Shown: positions 26,880 to 40,333 of the stretch, in pieces
Position numbering within the stretch: the stretch's first letter is position 1
Layout: every line of letters starts with the position of its first letter
NCBI GenBank assembly: GCA_944392605.1
Contig: CALXXE010000014.1
Span: 1-53,621 of the forward strand
Direction of reading: 5' to 3'
Length of the DNA stretch: 53,621 nt
Source: an uncultured Clostridia bacterium
GTDB lineage: Bacteria; Bacillota; Clostridia; TANB77; CAG-508
The notes under the pieces: generated by a model
What the model saw: the letters and a program-made list of their open reading frames with translations, nothing else
The model's database searches: none
Told to the model about the DNA's origin: nothing
Made by a program: the position numbers and the translations under genes

Positions 26880-26912
26880 AAGGTGTAATAGAATATACAC
26901 CTTTTCTATATT
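26880..26912 (+). terminator. Terminator of tex
   Basis: Eight-bp stem AAGGTGTA/TACACCTT followed by a T-rich tail on the plus strand. The convergent terminators of the two operons are interleaved. Confidence 0.6.
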
Positions 26913-27843
26913 ATTTTAAGTAAATATATTCAAAATCATTTAATTGTGTATCTTCAATATATGAATCATCTACAGAGTCAAATTTGAAATCTGTATAATC
27001 AGTTCTTGTATAATTTCCATCAGGATAATTTACAATTTCAATACTTTCTATTCCGGTAGATTGATTTATATATTTTTGTATTTTTGTTTCATCATTTAAA
27101 TTTTCTTCTATCACGTAATAACTTACTCCATCTATATTAGCAGTTTTTATTGGTTTTAAAATCCAACAAGTTAAAAGCTCAAAAAATGTTAGGTTGTTAT
27201 TTTCAGTATCAATATAATTTATTTGTGGTAATATCTTCTTACCATATTCGATAGTTTGGTAATCACCATCAACATTTTCTTGTACTGTAACTTTTTTATT
27301 TATAAAATCTATATAGGTAAGTTCCTTTGTTTCAGAATCATATAAGGTTTTACTTATTGTACTACCTTCATTATTCCTATTAATTGTTCCACTTATATTG
27401 TCTTTGAAAAATACTTCAGTTTCTTTTATTTCTAAATTATTATTAGTGCTATAACTTGAATTTATTATTTTCTTATATTGTAGATTATTAATATTATTAC
27501 AATTAGTCATTGTTGTTTTTCTTGCCTCTAGTATAGAAGAATAAATTTTGTAATTATGATACATAAATCCACCTAATATAAATAGGATGATAACAATGAC
27601 AACTATTAATAATTTGAGTAAATTCATTCTAAAGTTATATTTCTTCAATATGTTAATGTGTTTTTCTTCAGTATTATCACTATCCAGTTTTATATTTTTT
27701 TTCATATTTTCTAATATTTTTTTACATTGTGGACACTCTTTTATATGTTTTTCAACAAAATCATTAGTAGTTGTAGAAGTAAGTTTTTCTATATAAATAG
27801 GTATAATGTCTTTTACAATATCACACTCTTTATTATTTTTCAT
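26911..27843 (-). CDS. Zinc-finger anti-sigma factor with extracytoplasmic sensor domain
   Basis: 310 residues. Residues 1-50 carry a ZAS-type anti-sigma motif: the pattern H-x3-C-x2-C in HIKECPQCKK, with an upstream conserved helix (CDIVKDIIPIYIE). A membrane helix follows at about residues 74-92, then a 210-residue extracytoplasmic domain. It would hold the co-encoded ECF sigma factor inactive at the membrane until an envelope signal releases it. The ectodomain ending (GVSYYVIEE, INQSTGIESIEI) resembles that of the protein at 6007-6642. Its start overlaps the sigma gene's end by 11 bases, indicating coupled translation. Confidence 0.85.
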   Translation of the reverse strand: MKNNKECDIVKDIIPIYIEKLTSTTTNDFVEKHIKECPQCKKILENMKKNIKLDSDNTEEKHINILKKYNFRMNLLKLLIVVIVIILFILGGFMYHNYKIYSSILEARKTTMTNCNNINNLQYKKIINSSYSTNNNLEIKETEVFFKDNISGTINRNNEGSTISKTLYDSETKELTYIDFINKKVTVQENVDGDYQTIEYGKKILPQINYIDTENNNLTFFELLTCWILKPIKTANIDGVSYYVIEENLNDETKIQKYINQSTGIESIEIVNYPDGNYTRTDYTDFKFDSVDDSYIEDTQLNDFEYIYLK

Positions 27844-28327
27844 CTTCTTTTCCCTCCATCAACTTTTCTTTTCCCCTATAAAAAGTAACTCTTGCCCACA
27901 CTTCGCTTTTGCCAAAAAAGTTAGCAATTTCTCTGAAAGTTTTTTCTTCTTGCACTCTAAGTATTATTACTTCTTTTGTTACCTCATCTAATTTATTTAT
28001 ATTGCAATACAAATTTTTCTTATTTTCTTTTTCAATAATTTCTTCTTCCACACTATAATTAGAAGGAATTTCTGGTGAAATATCATCAGAAATAATATTA
28101 AGAGTCTTTCTTTTTTTATTGTATTCTTTGTATAATAAATTTTTTGAGATTTGACAAAGCCACACAGATAGTTTGCAATTGCCTTTAAATTTATTTATAT
28201 CTCTTACAGCATAATAGAACGTTTCTTGCGTTAAATCTTCTGCAAGTTCAGGATTATTAGTTTTGGCTAATAAAAATTTATATATTATTTTAAAATACTT
28301 TGAATACAATTCTTCTAAATTAGGCAT
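27833..28327 (-). CDS. ECF-type sigma-70 factor
   Basis: 164 residues: region 2 (YSKYFKIIYKFLLAKTNNPELAEDLTQETF) and region 4 (LDEVTKEVIILRVQEEKTFREIAN with a helix-turn-helix SEVWARVTFYRGKEKL), joined by an acidic linker. This is the two-domain layout of an ECF sigma factor. The next gene encodes its probable anti-sigma factor. Start ATG after AGAGGGAG. Two identical-format ECF-like promoter elements lie just upstream, suggesting autoregulation. Confidence 0.95.
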   Translation of the reverse strand: MPNLEELYSKYFKIIYKFLLAKTNNPELAEDLTQETFYYAVRDINKFKGNCKLSVWLCQISKNLLYKEYNKKRKTLNIISDDISPEIPSNYSVEEEIIEKENKKNLYCNINKLDEVTKEVIILRVQEEKTFREIANFFGKSEVWARVTFYRGKEKLMEGKEDEK

Positions 28328-28349
28328 TTTATCTCCCTCTATTTATAAT

Positions 28350-28375
28350 GTATCATTTTTTCTAATTGGTTACAA
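28350..28375 (-). promoter_or_regulatory. Candidate ECF autoregulatory promoter P1
   Basis: On the minus strand TTGTAACCAAT (TGTAAC at 28369-28374) then 16 bases after TGTAAC and TAC (28350-28352). Same spacing and flanks as P2 60 bases further upstream. TGTAAC is a known ECF-type -35 (SigX/SigW group). Confidence 0.5.
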
Positions 28376-28413
28376 GGATCTATATAAAACTTTAATTCCT
28401 TACATAATATAAG

Positions 28414-28439
28414 GTACTTTTTTTAAAGATTCGTTACAA
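28414..28439 (-). promoter_or_regulatory. Candidate ECF autoregulatory promoter P2
   Basis: TTGTAACGAAT (TGTAAC at 28433-28438), 16 bases, TAC (28414-28416). Matches P1 in -35, AAT extension, spacing and -10 core. Confidence 0.45.
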
Positions 28440-28474
28440 AATTTTACAAAAAAATTTAAATTTTTCTTAAAACT

Positions 28475-28504
28475 AATAAAAAGGTCTAGTATTTCTACTA
28501 GACC
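28475..28504 (-). terminator. Terminator of the HD-GYP response regulator gene
   Basis: Minus-strand stem GGTCTAGT/ACTAGACC, six-base loop, then TTTTTATT. Confidence 0.8.
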
Positions 28505-28512
28505 AAATATTT

Positions 28513-29601
28513 TTATATATTGTCTTCTTCATCTTCTATTCCTGTATATTTTTCTTGAATTTCTTTTATTTCATCATAATGATTTTCTAAAATGTCCAAG
28601 AAAACATTAGCTAAATTAGGGTCAAATTGAGTTCCGCTATTTTTTCTAAATTCTTCTTTAATAACATCCAAAGGTAAAGAATCACGATAAGATCTTCTAG
28701 AACTCATAGCGTCAAAACTATCAGCAACAGCTGTAATTCTAGCTAAATATGGTATGTTCTCTCCGGAAAGCTTACTTGGGTAGCCGTTACCGTCATATCT
28801 TTCATGGTGGTGTTCAACAATTGGTAAAATATTTTGGAATATTTTAGCATGTGATAATATATGTACACCAATATTAGGGTGTTGTTTAATTTGAGAATAT
28901 TCATCATCAGTAAGTCTTGCTTCTTTCTGAAGTATACTATCTGGAACGCCAATTTTTCCAATATCATGGAATAAACCACCAATTCTTAAAGTGTCTAAAT
29001 CGGCTTCTGGTAGTCCTAAATATTTTCCAAGCAAAACAGAAAACTCAGAAACACGGTCAGAGTGACCTCTTGTATATGTATCTTTTGCCTCAACTGTATA
29101 ACGTAATGTTTGAATACTCTCTAAATAAGCTTGTTCTAATTTTTCATATGTATCAGATAATTCTTCGTTAATCTTTTTTATTTGATTCATTTGAGCAATA
29201 GATTTTATACCTGATTCAATAAGTAACAATAATTGGTCAAATTTATCACTTTTTTCACAGTAGCCTTGTATGTCTAACCTTCTAATAGTCTCTAGTGGAG
29301 GAGCTAAGTCCTTATGACCTGTAAGCAATAAAATATATAAATCTTTGTTGAACTTTCTGATTTCTTCAACCACTTGATCACCATGAATAGGAGTCATAAT
29401 AAAGTCTAATATCATAAGGTCGAAATGTTCATTTCTTACTAGCTCTATTGCTTCCTCTGGATCTGTTACTCCTACAAAATTATAGCCAGATCTTTTTAAG
29501 AAAATAGATAAAGAATCTACAATTCCTTGTTCATCATCTACGGCTATAATTTTATAATTTTGATTTCCGTTATTTTCTAAATTCTGCAATCCTTTTCTCA
29601 T
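28513..29601 (-). CDS. Response regulator with HD-GYP output domain
   Basis: 362 residues. Receiver domain (residues 16-130) with acidic pocket VDDE (21-24), phospho-acceptor Asp66 in LMILDF, Thr in LLTGH and Lys118. A coiled-coil linker (135-165) leads to an HD-GYP domain (170-350): HD at 212-213 in GLFHDIGKIGVPD and GYP at 273-275 in RYDGNGYPSKLSG. HD-GYP domains usually hydrolyse cyclic di-GMP; the HD and GYP motifs appear intact. It follows the 7TM histidine kinase gene after a terminator and is its likely partner. ATG after GAGGT. Confidence 0.93.
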   Translation of the reverse strand: MRKGLQNLENNGNQNYKIIAVDDEQGIVDSLSIFLKRSGYNFVGVTDPEEAIELVRNEHFDLMILDFIMTPIHGDQVVEEIRKFNKDLYILLLTGHKDLAPPLETIRRLDIQGYCEKSDKFDQLLLLIESGIKSIAQMNQIKKINEELSDTYEKLEQAYLESIQTLRYTVEAKDTYTRGHSDRVSEFSVLLGKYLGLPEADLDTLRIGGLFHDIGKIGVPDSILQKEARLTDDEYSQIKQHPNIGVHILSHAKIFQNILPIVEHHHERYDGNGYPSKLSGENIPYLARITAVADSFDAMSSRRSYRDSLPLDVIKEEFRKNSGTQFDPNLANVFLDILENHYDEIKEIQEKYTGIEDEEDNI

Positions 29602-29660
29602 TATTATACCTCATAATATATTATTTATTATTTTTTACATATTATATTAATAAAAATAAT

Positions 29661-29710
29661 AAAAAGCAATAGTTTTAATGAAAAATTTTTTGCTAAAACT
29701 ATTGCTTTTT
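29661..29710. terminator. Terminator of the NRPS-kinase operon
   Basis: Perfect 17-bp stem AAAAAGCAATAGTTTTA and complement around a 16-base loop, flanked by T-rich sequence on the minus strand. It separates the kinase from the response regulator. Confidence 0.75.
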
Positions 29711-29728
29711 AAAGTAAAATACGCAATT

Positions 29729-31531
29729 TTATAAAGGTAATATTATAGTAAAAGTGGTACCTTTATCAGGCTCAGATTCAAAAGTAATATCTCCACCAAA
29801 ATGAGCTTTTATTGTAGAGTAAGACATATATAGTCCAAGACCTGTGCCATTTTTTCCTTTAGTTGTAATCATCTCTTTAAATAACTTATCCTTAACCTTT
29901 TTAGATAAGCCACAACCATAATCTCTTACAGAAATATATATTTTATTATCTTTTTTTTCAAAGATTAAATCAATATTCTGTTCAGTTTTTCCCTGATATG
30001 CTTGTATAGAATTTGAAATCATATTATTAATTACTTGGACTAAACTATTAACATCGCCATGTAATATTGTATGTTCAGGGATATTCATAGATACTTTTAA
30101 ATAAATTAATGCACTTTTTAATTCATGTCTCATCAGAATATCAACACGTTTAACTAATTCTTCTACATCAAAATTAGTATTTTCAGCCTCTGACATTGTA
30201 ACGGCTTGGCCTTTTACAACAGTAATAACATCCGACATATAACTTGTATACTCTTTAATTTTTTCAATCCAACTCATCATATCTTTTGCAATATCATGAT
30301 GGTCTTGAGAATTTACTTCGGGGTCATCAATTGAGGAATCATATTCTTTAATTAAATCAGATAATCCTTCAGTAGCTCCTGATATGGACATAATAGGAGT
30401 TTTTAAGTTATGAGCGATACCACCTATTAATTGTCCTAAAGAAGCTAAACGTTCACTTTCCATAAGCATATCTTGGTTATCTTTAATTTGATTTATGTCT
30501 AAAATATGTTGAGTAATATCTTTAAATAGAATCAATACGCCTATAAATACTTTTTTATTAAATAATGGGCTAATTTCAACATTAAAATATTTATTAGTTT
30601 TTGTATTTTGATATTCTACTGTATACGTTTTTTTATTTTTTATAGAGTTATAGAAAGTTTCCTTAAACTTATCCAAGTTCTTAGAAGAACTTAATAAATC
30701 AAAAATAGTTTTTTTACGTATATCAACTTCTTTAATATTAAAAGTTCTTACGAATGTATCATTATAGTCTATAATATTATTATTTGTATCTAAAACTAGA
30801 TAGCTATCTGACATTACATTTACTATTTTTTGTAAGGCTATAGGAGATATACTTAAAAAATTTAATCTTAATATAGCAAAAGCATATAGTATAATACCAA
30901 TAGTAAACGAAATTGGTGTTGAATATACATTCATATCAACTATTCTTAATGTTCCCAAGAAGTTTATAACAATAGGAATAATTGTACCTAAAATAATCAA
31001 AATAGATTGTTTTGAAAACATACCAGATGTTTTTAGAGAAGTTTGTATTAGCATAAACATACTTATTAGTAATAAACCATAAGTATAAACTGAATGTATA
31101 TAGAAATAAGGTCCAAAAATAGCATCACTCATTCTACTATTAGTAAAACGTACATAGAATAAATGGTGAAAATCATTTGTCCATAATACCAGTAGTGAAA
31201 TTACTGGTATTATAAACAAAAGTAAATATTTCTTTTCAAATTTAATTTTTGTGTTTTTAAAAATTAGAGCAGTAAAAAATACGGCTATAGGTAAGAGACA
31301 TGTACCTATATAAATAAAATATTCAAAATATATAGGTTCAATATTAGTATAGTTCATAAAAATATCTTGTATTAAAACACCAAAAGATATAACAAATACA
31401 CACATCAACATTGCTAAAAAACTTTTTTGTAATTGTGCTAAAGGTCTTTTTGACAATACATAAAATATTAGTAATACTATAGATAATATTGAGATAATAA
31501 GTAATATAAAAGGTATACTAGCAGTAGACAT
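29729..31531 (-). CDS. Sensor histidine kinase with N-terminal 7TM region and PAS domain
   Basis: 600 residues. Seven to eight N-terminal membrane helices (residues 5-235) of the histidine-kinase-7TM type, including TNDFHHLFY. Then a PAS domain (about 245-345, LVLDTNNNIIDYN...), an H-box with His near residue 374 in IGGIAHNLKTPIMSIS, an N-box (LVQVINNMISNSIQAY), G1 DYGCGLS and G2 GTGLGLYMS. The 7TM type is commonly thought to sense small or hydrophobic ligands. Its ATG lies 14 bases after the NRPS stop codon and uses AAGGAGG placed against that stop, so it is co-transcribed and probably coupled with the NRPS. Likely partner: the HD-GYP regulator downstream. Confidence 0.93.
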   Translation of the reverse strand: MSTASIPFILLIISILSIVLLIFYVLSKRPLAQLQKSFLAMLMCVFVISFGVLIQDIFMNYTNIEPIYFEYFIYIGTCLLPIAVFFTALIFKNTKIKFEKKYLLLFIIPVISLLVLWTNDFHHLFYVRFTNSRMSDAIFGPYFYIHSVYTYGLLLISMFMLIQTSLKTSGMFSKQSILIILGTIIPIVINFLGTLRIVDMNVYSTPISFTIGIILYAFAILRLNFLSISPIALQKIVNVMSDSYLVLDTNNNIIDYNDTFVRTFNIKEVDIRKKTIFDLLSSSKNLDKFKETFYNSIKNKKTYTVEYQNTKTNKYFNVEISPLFNKKVFIGVLILFKDITQHILDINQIKDNQDMLMESERLASLGQLIGGIAHNLKTPIMSISGATEGLSDLIKEYDSSIDDPEVNSQDHHDIAKDMMSWIEKIKEYTSYMSDVITVVKGQAVTMSEAENTNFDVEELVKRVDILMRHELKSALIYLKVSMNIPEHTILHGDVNSLVQVINNMISNSIQAYQGKTEQNIDLIFEKKDNKIYISVRDYGCGLSKKVKDKLFKEMITTKGKNGTGLGLYMSYSTIKAHFGGDITFESEPDKGTTFTIILPL

Positions 31532-31545
31532 ATAATCCTCCTTTT

Positions 31546-34500
31546 TTAAATAAAATTTATTTTCCTAAAGTAATTTATATATTTTATTAAATAATTTTTA
31601 TCAATATCTTTCCAATGAAAACCTATATGGCTTAGATATTTTTCAGTAAAGTCACAATCTAGTTTGATTCTAGAAGTATAAACTAATTGTTTGTTTTTAT
31701 CTAAATCATGTATAATCCCAGAAAGAATAGATTTTTTATTATCATCCTTTAATAATTCGTCTATTATGTTATACATTTCGTCATTAGATACAGGTAATAA
31801 TTTATATCCCATTTCATATAAAGTGTCAACTAGTAATTTTATAGATAATAATTTTGTATCATAAATATGAAATACATTACAAGGACTAGTATGGTTGGCA
31901 ATTTTTAATATGGCATTTGCACATAAATCTACAGGAGTTAGTTCAATTTCATGATTTAAAGAATAGTCAGGGAATACTCCCATATTGATAAATGATTGCA
32001 ATCTCTTAGCGAAAGCGTTTTCTTCTACATTTCTTTGGAACATACCATCTGAATATCTATTGGTTATATTACCAATTCTAACAATTTGTGCGTCTAAGCC
32101 ATTTGAAATTGATTCTAATACAATTCGTTCTGCCTCAAATTTTGTTATTGTATATACGTTATTTAAATGTTGTTTAATATATAAATTTCTCTCAGAAAAT
32201 GTATCTTTTTGATCAATGTTTTCAGGTGTTTCAATAATAGATTCTTCTTTTTCACCGTTGCCAGAAATACTTATTGTTGAAACATGAATTAATCGTTTTT
32301 TAAATGTTTTACAAATTTCAACTACATTATAAGTTCCATCAACATTTATTTTTTTAAATAACTCTCTTTGCCCGAAATGTTTAACAATAGCGCCAGAGTT
32401 TATGACGGTTGTAACATTATTTTTTATAATATCTAAATTCTCATTAGAAACACCAATGTTAGGCTTTGTTATATCACCTTCCATTATATGAATTCGGTGT
32501 TTATATTTTTGATAAAATGAATCACCAAAATAGTAAATAAGAGTATTTCTTAATCTTTCACGAGGAATCATATTATCTTTTTGTCTAATAAGACAGTAAA
32601 TATCACCATTATTATTTTTTAAAAATGAGTATATTAAATGTGATCCTAGATATCCAGTAACGCCAATTAATAGGACATTTCCTATATCGATATTTTTCGT
32701 ATTGGATATATTTTCTATTGTGTTTTTTGATAATAATGAGTTTATTTTACTATAATCATAATTTTCTAATGTATCATTAGGTTTATAAGAAATTTTTGTA
32801 GCTAATTCTCTTATAGTAGGAAAATTAAATATATCAGCATATTCAAAATTAAATCCATTCTTTAAGGCTTCTATTTGCATATTAATAGCCAATATAGAAT
32901 CTCCACCTATATCGAAGAAATTATCATCAATTGATATAGAGTTGTTATGTAGGAGTTTTGACCATATTTTTAACAATCTTTTTTCCTTAGAATTTAATTC
33001 TTCTTGTTTTGCAGGATTAACGTTATTATTCATATCAGGTATTGGTAATGCTTTTCTATTGATCTTTCTATTTATAGTATAAGGCATTTCTTTAAGTTGT
33101 ACAAAATAAGTAGGAACCATATAGCTAGGAAGAGATTTCCTTAGAAATTCTCTTACAGTGTTTTCAGGAATTTCTACATTTTTATCACAAACATAATATC
33201 CACATAGAAATTCTCTATCATCTAGCTCTATTTTGTTTACAACAGAAGAAGTTATACCTTCTATACTTTCCATTTTTGTTTCTATTTCTCCAAGTTCTAT
33301 TCTTAAACCACGCAATTTTACTTGGTTATCAATTCTACCAAGACATTGTACTTTACCATCAAAAGTCCATCTACCAATATCACCAGACTTATACATTTTG
33401 CCGTTACCAAAAGGATTATCTAAAAATTTCTCTTTAGTCATTTTTGGTTTTCCTAGATAACCAAGACCAACTTGAATTCCAGAAATATATATCTCTCCAA
33501 CAACGCCAATTGGTAATCTATGTCCATTCTTGTCTAGAATATGTATACCGGTATTCATTATTGGTGGACCTATAGTAATTTTATTTTCTCTATTTAAATT
33601 TTGTACATTTGATAAAACAGTTATTTCGCTAGGGCCATATATATTGTAAATAGTGACACCAGGAGAAAGGTTTCTTAAGTCTTTTACGAATTTTTCAGGT
33701 AAAGGTTCACCACCGAAAACCATATGTTTAATATTAGATAATGCTGAAGGATTTAACCTATTATCATAGTTGATTTTCATAAGGCTAGGGGTAACAGTCA
33801 TGACATCTGCATTATATTTTTTTATCAAAGCATCTAATAATATAGGATTTCTATGCTCTGCATTATTTGCCATTAATACTTTTAAACCATGAGTTAAAGA
33901 TACAAAGATTTCATATACAAATATATCAAAAGGTGTTGATGTAACAGAAGCTATACAATGTTTATTTCCTTCCTTCAAATAATCAAGAACTAGAGTCATA
34001 GCTTTGACCATATTAGCAAATCCAACTTGATGTAGTAGTACACCTTTTGGTACACCTGTAGATCCAGAGGTATATATTACATAAGATAAATCAAAAGGTT
34101 GCACTTTAACATTTGGATTATCAAAATCTTTGTTATACAAATTATTTTCAAGATCTATTTCTATAATATTATTAGCATCTTTAACTTTATCTTTTAAAGC
34201 TTTTTGAACAAGAACATATTCGGCTTTACTATTTTCCAAATAATATTTAGTCCTATTTTCTGGATAAGTAGGATCCAAATTTAAGAAAGCAGCACCAGCT
34301 TTTAAAATTCCAAGCATACATATAATTGTTTCTAAAGAACGATTAGCCATAATAGCTACAATATTATTAGGTTTAACGCCAATATCAATTAAGTAATGAG
34401 CCAAACTATTAGCTTTTTTATTCAACTCAGAATATGTAAGCGTTTTATTATCACAAATTACGGCTATATTATTTTTGTTTTGTTTAACAACATTTTCGAA

Positions 34501-37500
34501 AATAGAAACAACAGTATCATCATTAATTTCACCATCGGTTTTATTATAAAGTGATAGTAATGAGTCCTCTTTTTTAGTTATAATATTTATATTATCTAAA
34601 GATGTAGATAAATTATTATCTAGAGTTTCTAATAAGAATATATAGTGTTCATAAATACTTTCAATTGTTTCTTTATTAAATAAGTCTGTATTATATTCAA
34701 AATTAATATTATATGTAGAAGGAACAATTTCAACTGTCAAATTGAACTTAGAATATGGTATTTTAGAAGCAATTGTTTTTATGTTATTATCCCATAAATA
34801 GTTATTATTCTCGTTTTGATAAGTAAATACAACATCAAATAAAGATGTGTTAGCAGGTATTTTTAAATCTTTTAATAACATATCATAAGGATAAGGTTGA
34901 TTAGACAAGGAATCTAATACTAGTGATTTAACCTTATCAAAAAACTCTTCCAATTTCATTTTACCATCGATACTTAAGTTTAAGACAATATTATTAACAA
35001 ACATACCAATCATATTTTCTAATTGAGATGAATATCTTGATTCTATAGGAGAACCAATAATAATATTTTCTTGACCAGTATATCTATATAGTAAAATATA
35101 TAAAGTAGATAGGAATATCATATAGTCAGAAATACCATATTTTTTAGCTAAATTTGAAACAGAATGGAACAAAGTTTGAGGTATTTTATAATAAACTTTA
35201 CTTCCACTATATGATTTTTTGTCACTTGGCTGATTATCATATGGTAAATTTATAATTGGTATTTCATAATTTTTAAATCTTTTACTCCAGTAATTTTTAA
35301 TAGCTAAAATATTATCACTATTTAGATAATCATTTTCCCAAACAGAATAATCTTTATATTCAATTTCTGAGTTTTCTAGTTTTTTACCATTATATAAGTC
35401 GCAAAATTCAGAAATTAAAATATTTAAAGAAGTTCCGTCCATTATTATATGATGAGTATCTATTAATATTAAAGAAGAATTATTAATATAGTGAAGTTCA
35501 ACTCTTAGTAAAGGGGCAAAGTCCAAGTCAAAAGCTTTTGGAAAATTATCTGCAATTGATTGTATATCACTATTTAATATAATTCCGTCATCATAAAATT
35601 TAACATTGATTTTACATTTATCTAAAACAAATTGCCTAATTTCTCCATTATAAGTTGAAAAATAAGTTCTAAAGCCACTATGTTTTTCAACAATTTTATT
35701 AAAAATAGATTCTACTGTTCCAGGGTTTAAAAGTTCATTGATAATAATTCCACCGCTAATATTATATAAAAGAGAAGACGAGTTGGCTATTTTTGAAGCG
35801 TAGTAAATTCTCTTTTGGGCAGATGACAAAGGATAACTGCTTTCATTAGGAGTTTTAGAGATTGTGTAAATATCCTTGTCTGGAGTAGTATGCTTATCTA
35901 TTAAAGTAGCTAATTTATGGATAGTATTATTTTTATATAAACTTGAAACATTTAAATTAATGCTAAACTCATAATAAATACTTAAAGATAATCTAATAGC
36001 TAATAAAGAGTCTAAGCCTAGCTCAAAAAAATTATCATAAATAGAAATTTTATCTACATTTAACAAATTGCATAACATACTATGTAATTTTATTTCTGTT
36101 AAAGTAGATGGTTTTATATATTTTACAGGTTCAACATCTATATATGGTAAATTTTTTCTATCTATTTTTCCGTTAGGAGTAAGAGGTAATTTGTCTAATA
36201 TTATTATATGATTAGGTATCATGTAATAAGGTAATAGTTCAGCCAATTTATTTTTTATATAATCAGGCGTAATAACAGGGCTAGATGTTGAAATATAACA
36301 ACAAATAGCAGGGACATTATGAATTTCTTTAAATATAGTAACAGAATTACTTACATTTTCAATATCTTTAATACAATTATTTATTTCACTTAATTCAACT
36401 CTATGACCGCGATATTTTATTTGAGAGTCATTTCTTCCAACAAAGTATAAATATCCTTCTTCATTCCAATAACCAATATCTCCGGTTCTATATATCAAAT
36501 TTTCTGATAAAGATTTAATTGTGAAAAAAGCTTCTCTAGTTTTTTCTAAATTATTTAAATAACCTTTAGAAACACTAGTACCAGTAATACAAATTTCTCC
36601 TGGAAAACCAATAGGTTGTAGATTATTTAGAAAATTTAATATAAAAATATTATTATTTTTTAAAGGATATCCAATAGGAACAGTATTTGCATCATTCTTA
36701 TTATATTTATATGGATAAAAAGTAGAGCAAATAGTAGCTTCCGTTGGTCCGTACCCATTTACAATCTCTATATTCTTATTTAATTCTATAAAATGATTTA
36801 AAGTACCATTTCTAATAGCCTCCACTCCAACTAACATTTTATTTACACCAAATTTTTTATTTGAAGTTTTAATAAAATTATATACATCATCTAATACATT
36901 TGGTGGAATATATAAAAATGTAATATTTTCTTTTTCTAAAATATTCACTAAAATTTTTATATCTGTTAATGTGTTTTCAGGGTATAATACAAGTGTGGCA
37001 CCAAAACATAAAGGAGTATAAATTTCAGCAACGCTAACATCAAAAGAAATATTTGTTAAAGACAAGCAATTATCTTTAGATGAAAATTTGTTTTTAAAAC
37101 AGTCATTAAACACATATACAAAATTTATCAAATTTTTATGTGTAAGCATAACGCCTTTTGGTTTCCCTGTAGAGCCAGATGTATATATAACATAACATAA
37201 ATCATTCGAAGAAATATTAACATTCAAATTAGTATCATCAAAGTTATTCAAATTAATTTTGCTTGGATTAATAATATCTATGTCATCAATATTAAGGTTA
37301 CCATTAGATATTAAAAGCCTAGAGTTACTATCTTCTAATATATAATTAACTCTTTCAATTGGATAATCAGGATGCATAGGTAAATAAGCTGCTCCTATTT
37401 TTTGAATTGCCAAAATAGATATAATAAACCAGTCAGACTTGTTCATATAGACCCCAATTATATCTTTTGCTTTGGCTCCTTTAGATAATAAGTATCTTGC

Positions 37501-38985
37501 AAAACGGTTAACAATATTATTTAATTCTAAGTATGAATAAGATTTGTTCTTATAAATCAAAGCAGTTTCTTTTGGATACTTAATAACCATCTCTTCAAAA
37601 AGTTTGATTATATTAGAATCAAGAGGACATTTTAAAGTATGATTATTAAAATCATTTAAAATTTGAGATTTCTCATCATCAGTAATATATTCCACATCTT
37701 TTATAAGGATAGATTCATTACTTAATACTTGAAAAATAATCTTTAAAATGCGCAAATGCCAAGAAGTAATTTCTTCCTCAGTATATTTATTAATTAAGTA
37801 ATCATAATCTATTCTCAAAGTACCAGTATCATTAATATCATATAAGCTAATAGTAAGTTCATCAATTCCTGTACCTGTAAAAAACCAGTTAGTTTCATAA
37901 TTATTAATATCCGGTGTTGCTTTTGTAATTTGATAAGAAACAGAGATATTATATAAATTAGAAATAGAATCATTTTGTTTTCTAACATCTTCAATAATAT
38001 TTATATAAGAATATTTTTGATGTCTAAAGATAGACATTATATTAATATTATTTTTAATTGCAAAATCCGAAAATGAAATATCTGGTAATACATGAGTACG
38101 GAAAGGTATTGTAGATATAAACATACCAGTAGAGTTCTTCTCTTTAAAATTAGTCCTGTTTAAAATCGGTGTACCAATAGCGAAGTCATCAGTATTGGTT
38201 GAATTAGCCATAAAAACAGATATTACAGACATAAAGAAAGAATATACTGATAATTTATGATTTTTACAGTAATCATTAATTTTAAGCATTATATCTTTAT
38301 CAATAAAATATGTAAGTCTAGATGCTTTACGTGAATTATCCAAATTATTTGACTTCTTATGAATAGAAGGAATAGAAACTACATTAGAAAAATCAGATAA
38401 ATAATTTGCCCAAAATTCTTTATCTTTTAAACGTTTTTTACTATCAACATAATTCTCCTCAGAATTTATGAAATCAATGTAAGAAAATGTAGGAGAAATA
38501 TATTCAGTTTTATTAATTAATGAGTGATATATTTTTACAATTTCTTTTATAGTAATTCCAAGAGACCAAGAGTCAGAAATAATATGATGGATATTTAAAA
38601 TAACAGCTGCATATCCATTAGGAAATAAAGCCAATTTAAATTTAAAAAGTGGCGAATTTAATAAAGTAAATTTTTCTTTTACCATTGAATTTTCTAAATT
38701 TTTAAAATCTTCCATAGAAGAAATATTTTCAACATCTATATCAAAAGGTTTAAAATCAACCAAATATTGCATAGGTTTACTGTTTTCTAAAGTCAATTGA
38801 ATTCTAAAGCTGTCATTTTTGCTAACTAATATATTTATAGCTTTTTTTAATAAATTTATATTTATATTTTCTTTAATAAGTCCTGAAGCACAAATGTTAC
38901 ATATATTAGTACCAGAATAATAAAATTCCATATTCCAAATATTTTTTTGTGGGTTTGTTAGCTCATAAACATCCTTTTTTAACAT
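31546..38985 (-). CDS. Two-module nonribosomal peptide synthetase, C-A-T-C-A-T-R
   Basis: 2479 residues. Domain order with landmark residues: starter C (HHIISDSW near 135), A1 (YTSGSTGKPKG near 600, GYGPTEATIC, NGKIDR), T1 (FFELGLDSL near 995), C2 (HHIIMDG near 1180), A2 (YTSGSTGVPKG near 1640, IYGPSEITVL), T2 (FFDIGGDSI near 2030), and a C-terminal thioester reductase (GVTGYLG near 2110, catalytic Tyr and Lys in VYTITKFEAE near 2280). The initial C domain suggests N-acylation of the first amino acid; the R domain releases an aldehyde reductively. Hand-derived ten-residue codes are DVAYLGGICK (A1) and DIYTVGIVLK (A2); I cannot assign substrates. All catalytic motifs look intact. ATG 38985 follows AAGG by eight bases; the upstream GTG is inside the binding site. 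No phosphopantetheinyl transferase or exporter is nearby. Confidence 0.96.
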   Translation of the reverse strand: MLKKDVYELTNPQKNIWNMEFYYSGTNICNICASGLIKENININLLKKAINILVSKNDSFRIQLTLENSKPMQYLVDFKPFDIDVENISSMEDFKNLENSMVKEKFTLLNSPLFKFKLALFPNGYAAVILNIHHIISDSWSLGITIKEIVKIYHSLINKTEYISPTFSYIDFINSEENYVDSKKRLKDKEFWANYLSDFSNVVSIPSIHKKSNNLDNSRKASRLTYFIDKDIMLKINDYCKNHKLSVYSFFMSVISVFMANSTNTDDFAIGTPILNRTNFKEKNSTGMFISTIPFRTHVLPDISFSDFAIKNNINIMSIFRHQKYSYINIIEDVRKQNDSISNLYNISVSYQITKATPDINNYETNWFFTGTGIDELTISLYDINDTGTLRIDYDYLINKYTEEEITSWHLRILKIIFQVLSNESILIKDVEYITDDEKSQILNDFNNHTLKCPLDSNIIKLFEEMVIKYPKETALIYKNKSYSYLELNNIVNRFARYLLSKGAKAKDIIGVYMNKSDWFIISILAIQKIGAAYLPMHPDYPIERVNYILEDSNSRLLISNGNLNIDDIDIINPSKINLNNFDDTNLNVNISSNDLCYVIYTSGSTGKPKGVMLTHKNLINFVYVFNDCFKNKFSSKDNCLSLTNISFDVSVAEIYTPLCFGATLVLYPENTLTDIKILVNILEKENITFLYIPPNVLDDVYNFIKTSNKKFGVNKMLVGVEAIRNGTLNHFIELNKNIEIVNGYGPTEATICSTFYPYKYNKNDANTVPIGYPLKNNNIFILNFLNNLQPIGFPGEICITGTSVSKGYLNNLEKTREAFFTIKSLSENLIYRTGDIGYWNEEGYLYFVGRNDSQIKYRGHRVELSEINNCIKDIENVSNSVTIFKEIHNVPAICCYISTSSPVITPDYIKNKLAELLPYYMIPNHIIILDKLPLTPNGKIDRKNLPYIDVEPVKYIKPSTLTEIKLHSMLCNLLNVDKISIYDNFFELGLDSLLAIRLSLSIYYEFSINLNVSSLYKNNTIHKLATLIDKHTTPDKDIYTISKTPNESSYPLSSAQKRIYYASKIANSSSLLYNISGGIIINELLNPGTVESIFNKIVEKHSGFRTYFSTYNGEIRQFVLDKCKINVKFYDDGIILNSDIQSIADNFPKAFDLDFAPLLRVELHYINNSSLILIDTHHIIMDGTSLNILISEFCDLYNGKKLENSEIEYKDYSVWENDYLNSDNILAIKNYWSKRFKNYEIPIINLPYDNQPSDKKSYSGSKVYYKIPQTLFHSVSNLAKKYGISDYMIFLSTLYILLYRYTGQENIIIGSPIESRYSSQLENMIGMFVNNIVLNLSIDGKMKLEEFFDKVKSLVLDSLSNQPYPYDMLLKDLKIPANTSLFDVVFTYQNENNNYLWDNNIKTIASKIPYSKFNLTVEIVPSTYNINFEYNTDLFNKETIESIYEHYIFLLETLDNNLSTSLDNINIITKKEDSLLSLYNKTDGEINDDTVVSIFENVVKQNKNNIAVICDNKTLTYSELNKKANSLAHYLIDIGVKPNNIVAIMANRSLETIICMLGILKAGAAFLNLDPTYPENRTKYYLENSKAEYVLVQKALKDKVKDANNIIEIDLENNLYNKDFDNPNVKVQPFDLSYVIYTSGSTGVPKGVLLHQVGFANMVKAMTLVLDYLKEGNKHCIASVTSTPFDIFVYEIFVSLTHGLKVLMANNAEHRNPILLDALIKKYNADVMTVTPSLMKINYDNRLNPSALSNIKHMVFGGEPLPEKFVKDLRNLSPGVTIYNIYGPSEITVLSNVQNLNRENKITIGPPIMNTGIHILDKNGHRLPIGVVGEIYISGIQVGLGYLGKPKMTKEKFLDNPFGNGKMYKSGDIGRWTFDGKVQCLGRIDNQVKLRGLRIELGEIETKMESIEGITSSVVNKIELDDREFLCGYYVCDKNVEIPENTVREFLRKSLPSYMVPTYFVQLKEMPYTINRKINRKALPIPDMNNNVNPAKQEELNSKEKRLLKIWSKLLHNNSISIDDNFFDIGGDSILAINMQIEALKNGFNFEYADIFNFPTIRELATKISYKPNDTLENYDYSKINSLLSKNTIENISNTKNIDIGNVLLIGVTGYLGSHLIYSFLKNNNGDIYCLIRQKDNMIPRERLRNTLIYYFGDSFYQKYKHRIHIMEGDITKPNIGVSNENLDIIKNNVTTVINSGAIVKHFGQRELFKKINVDGTYNVVEICKTFKKRLIHVSTISISGNGEKEESIIETPENIDQKDTFSERNLYIKQHLNNVYTITKFEAERIVLESISNGLDAQIVRIGNITNRYSDGMFQRNVEENAFAKRLQSFINMGVFPDYSLNHEIELTPVDLCANAILKIANHTSPCNVFHIYDTKLLSIKLLVDTLYEMGYKLLPVSNDEMYNIIDELLKDDNKKSILSGIIHDLDKNKQLVYTSRIKLDCDFTEKYLSHIGFHWKDIDKNYLIKYINYFRKINFI

Positions 38986-39024
38986 TTTTCTCACCTTATA
39001 TTAAAAATAAATTTATCTAGTCAA

Positions 39025-39054
39025 ATTATATATATATTTGTCTTAAAATGTCAA
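39025..39054 (-). promoter_or_regulatory. Promoter of the NRPS-kinase operon
   Basis: Minus strand TTGACA (39049-39054), 18-base spacer, TATAAT (39025-39030), about 30 bases from the ribosome binding site. Both hexamers are consensus, so basal expression may be substantial. Confidence 0.75.
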
Positions 39055-39117
39055 GGGATTATGGAGGTTCTTTGGCGCATTTTTTAAATAAAAAACTTAT
39101 GTGAATTATAAAAAATA

Positions 39118-39174
39118 TTTCCTTATTCTCATATTTATTTATTAAACTTTGATTAAAATATGAAAATAAGGAAA
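39118..39174. repeat. Long inverted repeat between the NRPS operon and htrA
   Basis: Arms of 19 bases (TTTCCTTATTCTCATATTT at 39118-39136 and its complement at 39156-39174 with one mismatch), loop of 19 bases. It lies immediately upstream of the htrA ribosome binding site, in the 200-base divergent intergenic region. There is no T-run on either side, so it is more likely an operator or a leader RNA structure than a terminator. Confidence 0.6.
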
Positions 39175-39196
39175 CAATATTTTTGAGGTGGAATAT

Positions 39197-40333
39197 TTGG
39201 TAAAGAGAAAGAAAAATAAATCAAGAAAAATAATATTTATTTCTATTTTTTTAATATTTATTTGGATATTTGGATTTTATTTATATACTACATACCAGAA
39301 TATAGAAATAAATGAAAGTAATTACACAGCTGAAAGGCAACAATCCACAATAGAAGAACAAACTGTGGAAAAGGTAGAAGAAAATAGTAAGACAGTTGCA
39401 GATATGATAGAGGAAACAACAGAAAAGGTAGTAGGAATTTCAAAACTAAAGAATACAGGAAGTAGTATATTTTCTAGTAATGAAGAAAATGATTTAGGCT
39501 TAGGAACAGGATTTATAGTAACAGCTGATGGTTATATAGTAAGTAATAGTCATGTAACAGGAGAAAAGTACAGTAAATGCTATGTAACATTAGAAAATGG
39601 AAATAACTATGAAGGAACTGTGGCTTGGAGTGATACAGATTTAGACTTGTCTATTGTAAAAATAAATAGCAAAAATTTGCCATATGTGAGTTTAGGAGAT
39701 TCTAGTTCAATTAGAGTAGGGGAAACTGTTTATGCGATAGGAAACCCAATAGGGTTTGAATTTAGAAGAACAGTAACATCAGGAATTATAAGTGCAAAAA
39801 ATAGAACAATAAAAATAGAAGAAGAAAATAAAACTTCCTATATGACAGATTTAATACAAACAGATGCAACAATAAACCCTGGAAATAGTGGGGGACCGTT
39901 AATATATCCAAATGGAAATGTCATTGGAATTAATACTGTTAAAATATCAACAGCAGAAGGTATAGGTTTTGCAATACCAATTAATATAATAAAGCCAATA
40001 ATAGAAAGTTTTAAAAAGACGGGAACATTTGAGGAAGCGACAATCGGAATTTATGCTTACGATAAAGAGGTAATACCATATTTAAACTCTAGTTATAATA
40101 CAATTAATTTTGATACAGGAATATATGTAGAACAAATTACAAAAAATGGCCCAGCGGATAATACAGAACTAAAAGAAGGAGATATTATCACAAATATAGA
40201 TGGTAAAGAATTAAATACGATGAATGATTTAAGAGAATATATTTATACCAAAAAGCCAAATGATGAAGTAACACTTAAAGTTACAAGAGGTAAAATAAGT
40301 AAAGAGATAAAACTAGTATTAGGAAAAAAATAG
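39197..40333 (+). CDS. htrA: HtrA/DegP-like membrane-anchored serine protease
   Basis: 378 residues: basic N-terminus, one membrane helix (11-29), a linker, a trypsin-like protease domain and one PDZ domain. Catalytic triad: His in YIVSNSHVTG, Asp in DTDLDLSIVKI, Ser in NPGNSGGPLI. PDZ: GIYVEQITKNGPADNTELKEGDII. HtrA proteins degrade misfolded extracytoplasmic proteins under envelope stress. GTG 39188 overlaps the GAGG ribosome binding site; TTG 39197 is eight bases downstream and gives a typical basic start (VKRKKNKSRK). It is divergent from the NRPS. Confidence 0.93.
   Translation: MVKRKKNKSRKIIFISIFLIFIWIFGFYLYTTYQNIEINESNYTAERQQSTIEEQTVEKVEENSKTVADMIEETTEKVVGISKLKNTGSSIFSSNEENDLGLGTGFIVTADGYIVSNSHVTGEKYSKCYVTLENGNNYEGTVAWSDTDLDLSIVKINSKNLPYVSLGDSSSIRVGETVYAIGNPIGFEFRRTVTSGIISAKNRTIKIEEENKTSYMTDLIQTDATINPGNSGGPLIYPNGNVIGINTVKISTAEGIGFAIPINIIKPIIESFKKTGTFEEATIGIYAYDKEVIPYLNSSYNTINFDTGIYVEQITKNGPADNTELKEGDIITNIDGKELNTMNDLREYIYTKKPNDEVTLKVTRGKISKEIKLVLGKK

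Follow-up and report, generated by a model that had tools for sequence, protein, structure and literature searches.

A nonribosomal peptide synthetase (NRPS) gene followed at once by a sensor histidine kinase (HK) gene raises the question of whether the two belong to one functional unit and, if so, what the kinase reads. This arrangement is found in an uncultured Clostridia bacterium (GenBank assembly GCA_944392605.1, a 2.0-Mb draft in 38 contigs, with completeness of 88.74% and contamination of 7.25%), where it occupies positions 29729..38985 of the window, that is, the whole 53,621-nucleotide stretch of DNA that was analyzed (contig CALXXE010000014.1, positions 1-53,621, forward strand). A preliminary description had proposed that the cell makes a small reactive or cyclized peptide and senses it, or the state of its target, with the kinase, linking the NRPS product to cyclic-di-nucleotide signaling.

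The NRPS-kinase operon and its regulator

All genes concerned are encoded on the minus strand, in the order promoter-like site, NRPS, 14-nt gap, HK, hairpin, response regulator (RR), ECF sigma factor, and anti-sigma-like protein. The NRPS (31546..38985, about 2479 aa, delineated by open reading frame (ORF) and Pfam matches) more likely starts at the ATG at 38985, which lies behind AAGGTGAG, than at the GTG at 38994, where the longest ORF begins. About 40 nt before this ATG, a consensus scan of 28300-39300 found its sole 12-of-12 sigma-70-like match, TTGACA-18-TATAAT (39025..39054, minus strand), a promoter-like site by consensus match only; promoter-like matches overall in this interval, 110 in number, are not clearly above those in shuffled sequences (93.7, sd 9.0). 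The NRPS stop and the HK ATG are separated by 14 nt, AAAAGGAGGATTAT, and a GGAGG ribosome binding site of the HK (31537..31541, minus strand) lies inside this gap. Behind the HK (29729..31531, minus strand, 600 aa), RNA folding predicts an intrinsic terminator-like hairpin at about 29660..29711 (-19.1 kcal/mol, z -5.75), with 0 of 200 shuffles as stable; the consensus terminator scan, which allowed loops of 3-8 only, missed this hairpin because of the loop limit, so it was folded separately.

Between the promoter-like site and the hairpin, no gene besides the NRPS and the HK was seen among ORFs of at least 120 aa or on inspection of the intergenic sequence. The operon includes no exporter, and the NRPS is its only enzyme gene; with a 14-nt gap and no extra gene before the hairpin, a ribosomal pro-peptide and its processing enzyme were not found there either. 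Judged by sequence, the NRPS-HK pair is real and appears to be one transcription unit, with one consensus promoter before it and one hairpin behind both genes, which bears out the preliminary description on the pair, on its joint transcription, and on the lack of anything else in the operon. That description had also placed an RR with HD-GYP output next; such a regulator is present (28513..29601, minus strand), but it starts 127 nt past the HK, on the far side of the hairpin, and in the window it is outside the NRPS-HK unit.

Two further features of the surroundings can be mentioned. A 19-pair imperfect hairpin lies within the 7TM-coding part of the kinase gene (31176-31220, minus strand). Behind the RR, at 26911-28327 (minus strand), are the ECF sigma factor and the overlapping anti-sigma-like protein, whose zf-HC2 match is slightly below the Pfam cut-off; similar pairs occur near the module in loci L077 and L111.

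Pfam assigns to the NRPS the architecture C-A-T-C-A-T-NAD_binding_4, that is, two modules and reductive release. The first condensation domain, C1 (minus strand, approximate limits 37657..38970), is matched by PF00668 in two stretches, and the adenylation domains A1 (36139..37614) and A2 (33025..34524), both on the minus strand, have the pockets DVAYLGGIC and DIYTVGIVL, respectively, located by motif and alignment at positions that we take to be those of GrsA. The C-terminus is a thioester reductase release domain (TD; 31549..32724, minus strand; NAD_binding_4, 169.8 bits), as in reductive gut NRPSs of the peptide aldehyde type. Among the long NRPS ORFs of relatives, the Y..[ST]K motif is present in 158 of 158, a GxTGxxG-like motif in 139, and an HHxxxD-like condensation motif in 149; the carrier serine was judged by eye to be present in 50 NRPSs paired with type B kinases (see below). 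The nine-residue pocket codes are diverse, with 19 A1 and 17 A2 kinds in 40 loci. From the domain content, we infer a small peptide product that would be released reductively, as an aldehyde or a cyclized pyrazinone.

The HK has Pfam matches to HisKA_7TM, PAS, HisKA (25.2 bits, just below the cut-off of 26.9), and HATPase, and no REC or HPt domain of a hybrid kinase was matched. Its sensor half, 7TM plus PAS (30497..31531, minus strand), was delimited by Pfam, distance correlations, and an AlphaFold2 model (pLDDT 85.6), and its catalytic core, with an HNLKTP H-box and HATPase (29732..30496, minus strand), by alignment and by its co-evolution with the RR; the next-best match to the HK in the window genome is 27% identical over residues 265-600. 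The RR, the presumed partner of the HK by co-occurrence, consists in Pfam of Response_reg and HD domains, with HD and GYP motifs. There is no DNA-binding domain among its annotated domains (REC and HD domain only), and therefore no autoinduction loop is visible. The two-component features, namely the phospho-acceptor His, the ATP-binding motifs, and the receiver Asp, are intact. The H-box is present in 194 of 199 kinases, the 5 misses all coming from other families of the order, and the Asp, HD, and GYP residues are kept in 90 of 90 aligned RRs, with GYP found by pattern search in 137 of 140. A c-di-GMP output is plausible because the draft window genome contains GGDEF matches, albeit only 2.

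Conservation of the module across Clostridia

We searched 145 genomes of the window's family, representing 39 genera, for the kinase, the RR, and the TD. HK and TD co-occur in 107 genomes, are jointly missing from 35, and disagree in 3 (Fisher 4.8e-30), with the HK alone in G023 and G073 and the TD alone in G072; G040 was counted as HK-positive from a contig-edge fragment. HK and RR ortholog (threshold 450 bits, with G106, at 395 bits and at a contig end, added by hand) are both found in 106 genomes, neither in 33, and 6 are discordant. All three genes occur together in 105 genomes and none of them in 33; these module-less genomes are spread over 19 genera, 16 of which also have module-bearing genomes, and one of them (G083) retains strong C-A matches. 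Co-occurrence extends to some genomes (e.g., G087, G103, and G061) in which the RR is on a different contig from the NRPS-HK pair.

Synteny was examined in 210 mapped kinase loci, comprising 110 from the family (window included), 80 named MAG loci, and 20 from other families of the order. The 80 named relatives retained from public genomes are nearly all labeled as uncultured Clostridia or Clostridium MAGs, with some record titles pointing to animals (chicken, 'Lapin', and wild mice); among the matches listed, 577 of 585 stretches encode relatives. Leaving out 6 duplicate HKs and 5 contig-edge loci gave 199 testable loci; L170 (G040), without a kinase core, was unmapped. The NRPS is immediately upstream of the HK in 188 of the 199, and the RR is the next gene in 133. 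The NRPS-HK gap has a median of 12 nt in 155 single-ORF cases, is 50 nt or less in 134 of these, and is zero or an overlap in 36. The 11 non-adjacent loci include three with a split HK and the NRPS upstream (L164, L204, and L211), one with the NRPS at least two genes upstream (L300), five without a nearby NRPS (L108, L135, L171, L296, and L302), and two (L299 and L301) that are flipped, with the kinase first and NRPS sequence directly downstream, 0 or 19 nt after it. Because two loci are flipped in this manner, the NRPS-kinase pairing outlives gene order. Across 28 diverse members, the kinase core shares 57-80% identity with that of the window.

Beyond the order, a class-wide search with the kinase core at 1e-35 matched 52 of 391 genomes, 36 of them outside the order, and the best locus was inspected, with 1.5-kb flanks, in 18 of these 36. 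A TD end is directly upstream of the kinase in 3 of the 18 and an A-T end in 2, the others being different or unrecognized; an RR with HD-GYP is immediately downstream in 11. Family f77 has the same layout, with a 2493-aa C-A-T-C-A-T-TD NRPS, an HK, and a REC-DUF3369-HD-GYP protein. In family f11, a C-A-T NRPS with a different terminal domain overlaps the kinase start by 11 nt; this domain (L337:7632-8714, genome G528) matches PDB 9e4s, 'amino acid adenylation domain protein' (E 2.9e-75), and is not alignable by BLASTP to the TD of the window; it looks as if another release chemistry had been placed before the same kinase. Judged by eye, L331 and L332 have upstream ends of this kind too. The upstream partners of the kinase in L321, L325 (f86), and L324 (f11) look like thioesterase/hydrolase ends rather than a reductase, which Pfam backs for L324 only, with no Pfam match for L321. 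Five loci of family f56 (L319, L320, L322, L323, and L327), in genomes of 3.1-4.9 Mb, encode kinases in tandem in which different sensor halves precede the same core, with no NRPS within 1.5 kb; the distant kinases in f30 and f44 are located beside a REC-HTH regulator (by eye), with no adjacent NRPS.

Co-occurrence in the 145 genomes and adjacency in 188 of the 199 loci rule out a chance neighborhood of NRPS and HK. The NRPS-HK-RR synteny, for which the preliminary description had suggested a search, is conserved in relatives across the family and the order and into other Clostridia families, and we hold it to be practically certain that the NRPS, the kinase, and the RR form one functional module.

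The genomes without a complete module are informative as well. In three module-less genomes, an HtrA gene and a diverged RR gene adjoin divergently, with 161, 205, and 174 nt between the matches (G043:C1:2756-5076, G055:C2:298097-300428, and G009:C34:3740-6064, respectively) and with neither NRPS nor kinase in between; the remaining RRs are only 56, 50, and 55% identical, and the arrangement looks like an empty module site. Two genomes of one genus, G037 (L173:70-8688) and G062 (L174:6472-15378), have a two-module NRPS in two open frames with the RR directly after it and no kinase between, along with a one-module NRPS and a type B kinase on another contig; HtrA was seen upstream of the broken NRPS in L174. 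These broken NRPSs look like decay following partner loss.

In the window, the divergently encoded HtrA-type serine protease (39188..40333, plus strand, assigned by Pfam and neighborhood) is a neighbor and possible target, not a required part. In the 117 loci whose upstream sequence extends for 2.5 kb or more, a divergent HtrA lies within four genes upstream in 89 and is missing in 28; HtrA of the neighbor type (at least 50% identity; two as fragments) persists in 17 of the 33 module-less genomes, and all 33 have some HtrA match, so we rejected HtrA as a fixed part of the module. An AMP-dependent ligase-like protein of ~570-590 aa is divergently encoded between HtrA and NRPS in 45 of the 117 loci (e.g., L126, L074, and L076). 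An Sfp-type phosphopantetheinyl transferase was likewise rejected as a module part: the family genomes have one PF01648 match each in 132 of 145 cases, mostly in AcpS-size frames, and none in the other 13, irrespective of module presence. No family genome thus has more than one such transferase, though most carry an NRPS; that of the window genome is at G000:C2:162148-162486.

Two sensor halves above one kinase core

Two unrelated input halves are found above one kinase core. Type A kinases, to which that of the window belongs, total about 600 aa and have a 7TM plus PAS input. Type B kinases, of about 670 aa, are predicted to combine several transmembrane helices with an extracytoplasmic alpha/beta domain, and they match HAMP weakly. 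PAS domains are numerous among the matches of the type A sensor model; VqmA, which has a pyrazinone signal, is one of 61 at 0.001 or better and does not stand out from the rest. The type B sensor fold yielded no confident match (best E 0.014, none below E 0.001), and the sequence profile gave nothing useful.

Sensor type goes with the number of NRPS modules. Among loci with a complete NRPS, those of type B have one module in 93 cases plus 3 that were recoded, with no multi-module NRPS among the 96; the recoded loci (L146, L152, and L162), first scored as having two modules, contain a one-module NRPS beside a separate ligase ORF. Type A loci have two modules in 62 cases, three in 5, and one in 9, and two of these nine one-module-sized NRPSs (L115 and L178) are broken into pieces. 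The rule is one-sided in that type A also occurs with a one-module-sized NRPS.

This association recurs independently. On an RR tree of 122 loci, with 27 and 27 changes in the two traits, the traits agree in each of the 14 independent pairs that have branch support (median p 1.2e-4). As an RR in the locus was required for this set, it covered a single one of the nine loci that combine type A with one module, and the test was redone on a kinase-core tree of all 171 usable loci, including all 9 exceptions; with 36 and 40 changes, 14 of 14 pairs agreed, and 13 of 14 did so in 21 of 200 pairings. A tree of the neighboring gene TEX (74 loci, 18 and 18 changes) gave agreement in 9 of 9 pairs (p 0.004). 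All were quick trees without a mixture model.

Pairwise distance correlations, computed for 40 type A and 50 type B loci with close relatives included, locate the boundary of what is exchanged. In type B, for which r was obtained without permutation, the sensor half correlates with the NRPS C, A, and TD domains at 0.92, 0.92, and 0.95 and with its own core at 0.39, the core correlates with the RR at 0.79 and with the NRPS at 0.35-0.40, and the switch is sharp, near residue 400. In type A, the 7TM region has r of 0.72 with the TD, 0.48 with its own core, and 0.43 with the RR; r between core and RR is 0.70, and the switch is near residue 340. Mean divergence is 0.54-0.69 for NRPS domains and sensors, 0.27-0.32 for cores, and 0.22-0.24 for the RR. 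The NRPS and the sensor half therefore make up one evolving block, and the kinase core and the RR another; NRPS and sensor half are exchanged together. Read from these distances, the HK gene is chimeric: the sensor half evolves with the NRPS, whereas the core evolves with the RR. The reading put forward in the preliminary description is supported in part, the sensor half co-evolving with the NRPS both in these correlations and in the joint changes of sensor type and module number.

What the kinase may read

We consider it rather probable that what the kinase senses is the product of the NRPS, or something closely derived from it, in a self-contained signaling circuit that leads on to the HD-GYP regulator. 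Since the sensing half of the kinase evolves together with the peptide-building enzyme, the producing cells probably read the peptide as a signal. In such a circuit, the NRPS, which the single AcpS-type transferase found would have to activate, would make a small peptide, and reductive release would give an aldehyde (or a cyclized pyrazinone), small enough to cross or partition into the membrane without an exporter. The membrane-embedded sensor half, encoded on the same transcript as the NRPS, would bind the product or a close derivative, and the kinase core would phosphorylate the REC-HD-GYP regulator, whose HD-GYP domain would cleave c-di-GMP and so lower its level. NRPS and sensor half would then amount to a synthase-receptor cassette that is exchanged as one piece, with an unchanging kinase core and regulator downstream of it.

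Alternatively, the two-component system might sense an outside cue, from the host, the envelope, or nutrients, and control a lifestyle state that favors the NRPS product as a protease inhibitor against host or competitors, with the kinase sharing the promoter and not reading the product. The type B extracytoplasmic domain weakly resembles common-ligand sensor domains (at the E-values given above), and related gut NRPS products are described in the excerpts of PMC12327764 and PMC12282076 as dipeptide aldehydes or as peptide aldehydes, those called peptide aldehydes being protease-inhibitory; both observations would fit. An outside cue gives no reason, however, why sensor type and module number should change together in 14 of 14 pairs or why the sensor half should follow the NRPS over its own kinase core, and an RR that, by its annotated domains, cannot bind DNA is a poor match to such control; we regard this reading as unlikely.

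Plain hitchhiking is a live alternative, though in our estimation quite an improbable one. The NRPS and the sensor half would co-move through adjacency, homologous recombination in the conserved kinase core and in upstream genes carrying all that lies between, and their match would have no ligand meaning. Consistent with this, the exchanged block ends where conserved sequence begins, and the type A correlation peaks next to the sensor: partial r with the 7TM region is 0.68 for TD, 0.65 for T2, 0.53 for A2, 0.50 for C2, 0.32 for T1, 0.42 for A1, and 0.45 for C1. Pocket codes correlate with the 7TM region at 0.22 and 0.49 when core and RR are controlled; with the TD also controlled, the values fall to 0.06 and 0.03 for 7TM and to 0.06 and -0.18 for PAS, with hardly any correlation in divergent pairs. 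Sensing of amino acid identity as set by the A-domain pockets thus finds no support once the TD is controlled, and this result, together with the maximum at the nearest domain in type A, fits plain physical co-exchange. However, there is hardly any decay in type B, where the far C domain correlates as strongly as the TD does; C1, the domain most distant from the sensor in type A, retains r of 0.52 with PAS when TD, core, and RR are accounted for (p 5e-4); no multi-module NRPS occurs among the 96 complete type B loci (three recoded); and the joint keeping and loss of the pair and the RR is left unexplained by hitchhiking.

Action of the product on the divergently encoded HtrA, with the kinase reporting the resulting envelope or proteolysis state, has in its favor the frequent proximity of HtrA and the fact that serine proteases can be inhibited by peptide aldehydes, but it is highly improbable given the 28 loci without HtrA nearby and the persistence of HtrA in module-less genomes.

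If the kinase reads the NRPS product, several known systems invite comparison. The Rpf/DSF system of Xanthomonas comprises RpfF, an enzyme of the crotonase type that makes a fatty acid, RpfC, a hybrid kinase with a polytopic input, and RpfG, a REC-HD-GYP protein. The excerpt of PMC13220807 presents this system as a signal synthase plus a sensor kinase, with c-di-GMP degraded by the regulator that partners the kinase. Like Rpf, the module combines a synthase, a membrane kinase, and a REC-HD-GYP regulator with intact motifs; unlike Rpf, it has an NRPS and no RpfF-type crotonase synthase, its kinase is a plain one without REC or HPt, and it occurs in Clostridia. A hypervariable region in agr of Staphylococcus spans agrB, agrD, and agrC (excerpt of PMC10482373), and ComP of the Bacillus comQXPA system has a variable N-terminal domain versus a conserved cytoplasmic domain (excerpt of PMC4008528). 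There, as here, signal genes and sensor half vary together while kinase core and regulator stay constant, whereas agr and comQXPA rely on ribosomal peptides that an enzyme processes or modifies and on a regulator that binds DNA, in place of a nonribosomal putative signal and an HD-GYP regulator. By this comparison, the system would work like Rpf with the evolutionary habit of agr and comQXPA, and it is a member of none of these because the synthase, the kinase architecture, or the regulator differs.

With respect to the enzyme, the NRPSs of gut peptide aldehydes (ruminopeptin and the family of Guo et al. 2017, reportedly the main paper on these compounds) also end in a terminal reductase. The best NCBIfam match of the window NRPS is the aureusimine synthetase AusA (NF047350), likewise a two-module reductive NRPS, at 1380.6 bits and thus below the curated cut-off of 2500; we know of no kinase partner of AusA, unlike the NRPS analyzed here. 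The gut peptides, dipeptide aldehydes also isolated as pyrazinones (excerpt of PMC12327764), are known for protease inhibition, and a kinase has 0 occurrences in PMC12327764. No description of an NRPS-kinase pair was found in the open-access literature by titles and the starts of abstracts, most subscription papers being outside this scope.

Gut peptide aldehydes from small NRPSs have been described, and the conserved, cassette-like pairing makes their role for the producer directly testable, since every NRPS has its presumed receptor beside it. A broader proposal, which we put forward tentatively as a real possibility, is that a nonribosomal quorum-sensing or self-sensing system has spread through Clostridia, in which a 'pherotype' cassette of NRPS and sensor half is swapped between species above a constant core and HD-GYP regulator, and that the reductive gut peptides are primarily signals, protease inhibition being secondary. 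If the kinase does read the NRPS product, an NRPS-based class would join the synthase-receptor systems, nonribosomal products would be tied to cyclic-di-nucleotide signaling, many uncultured species would have a readable chemical language with products and receptors open to expression from their sequences, and the gut peptides would have a bacterial purpose.
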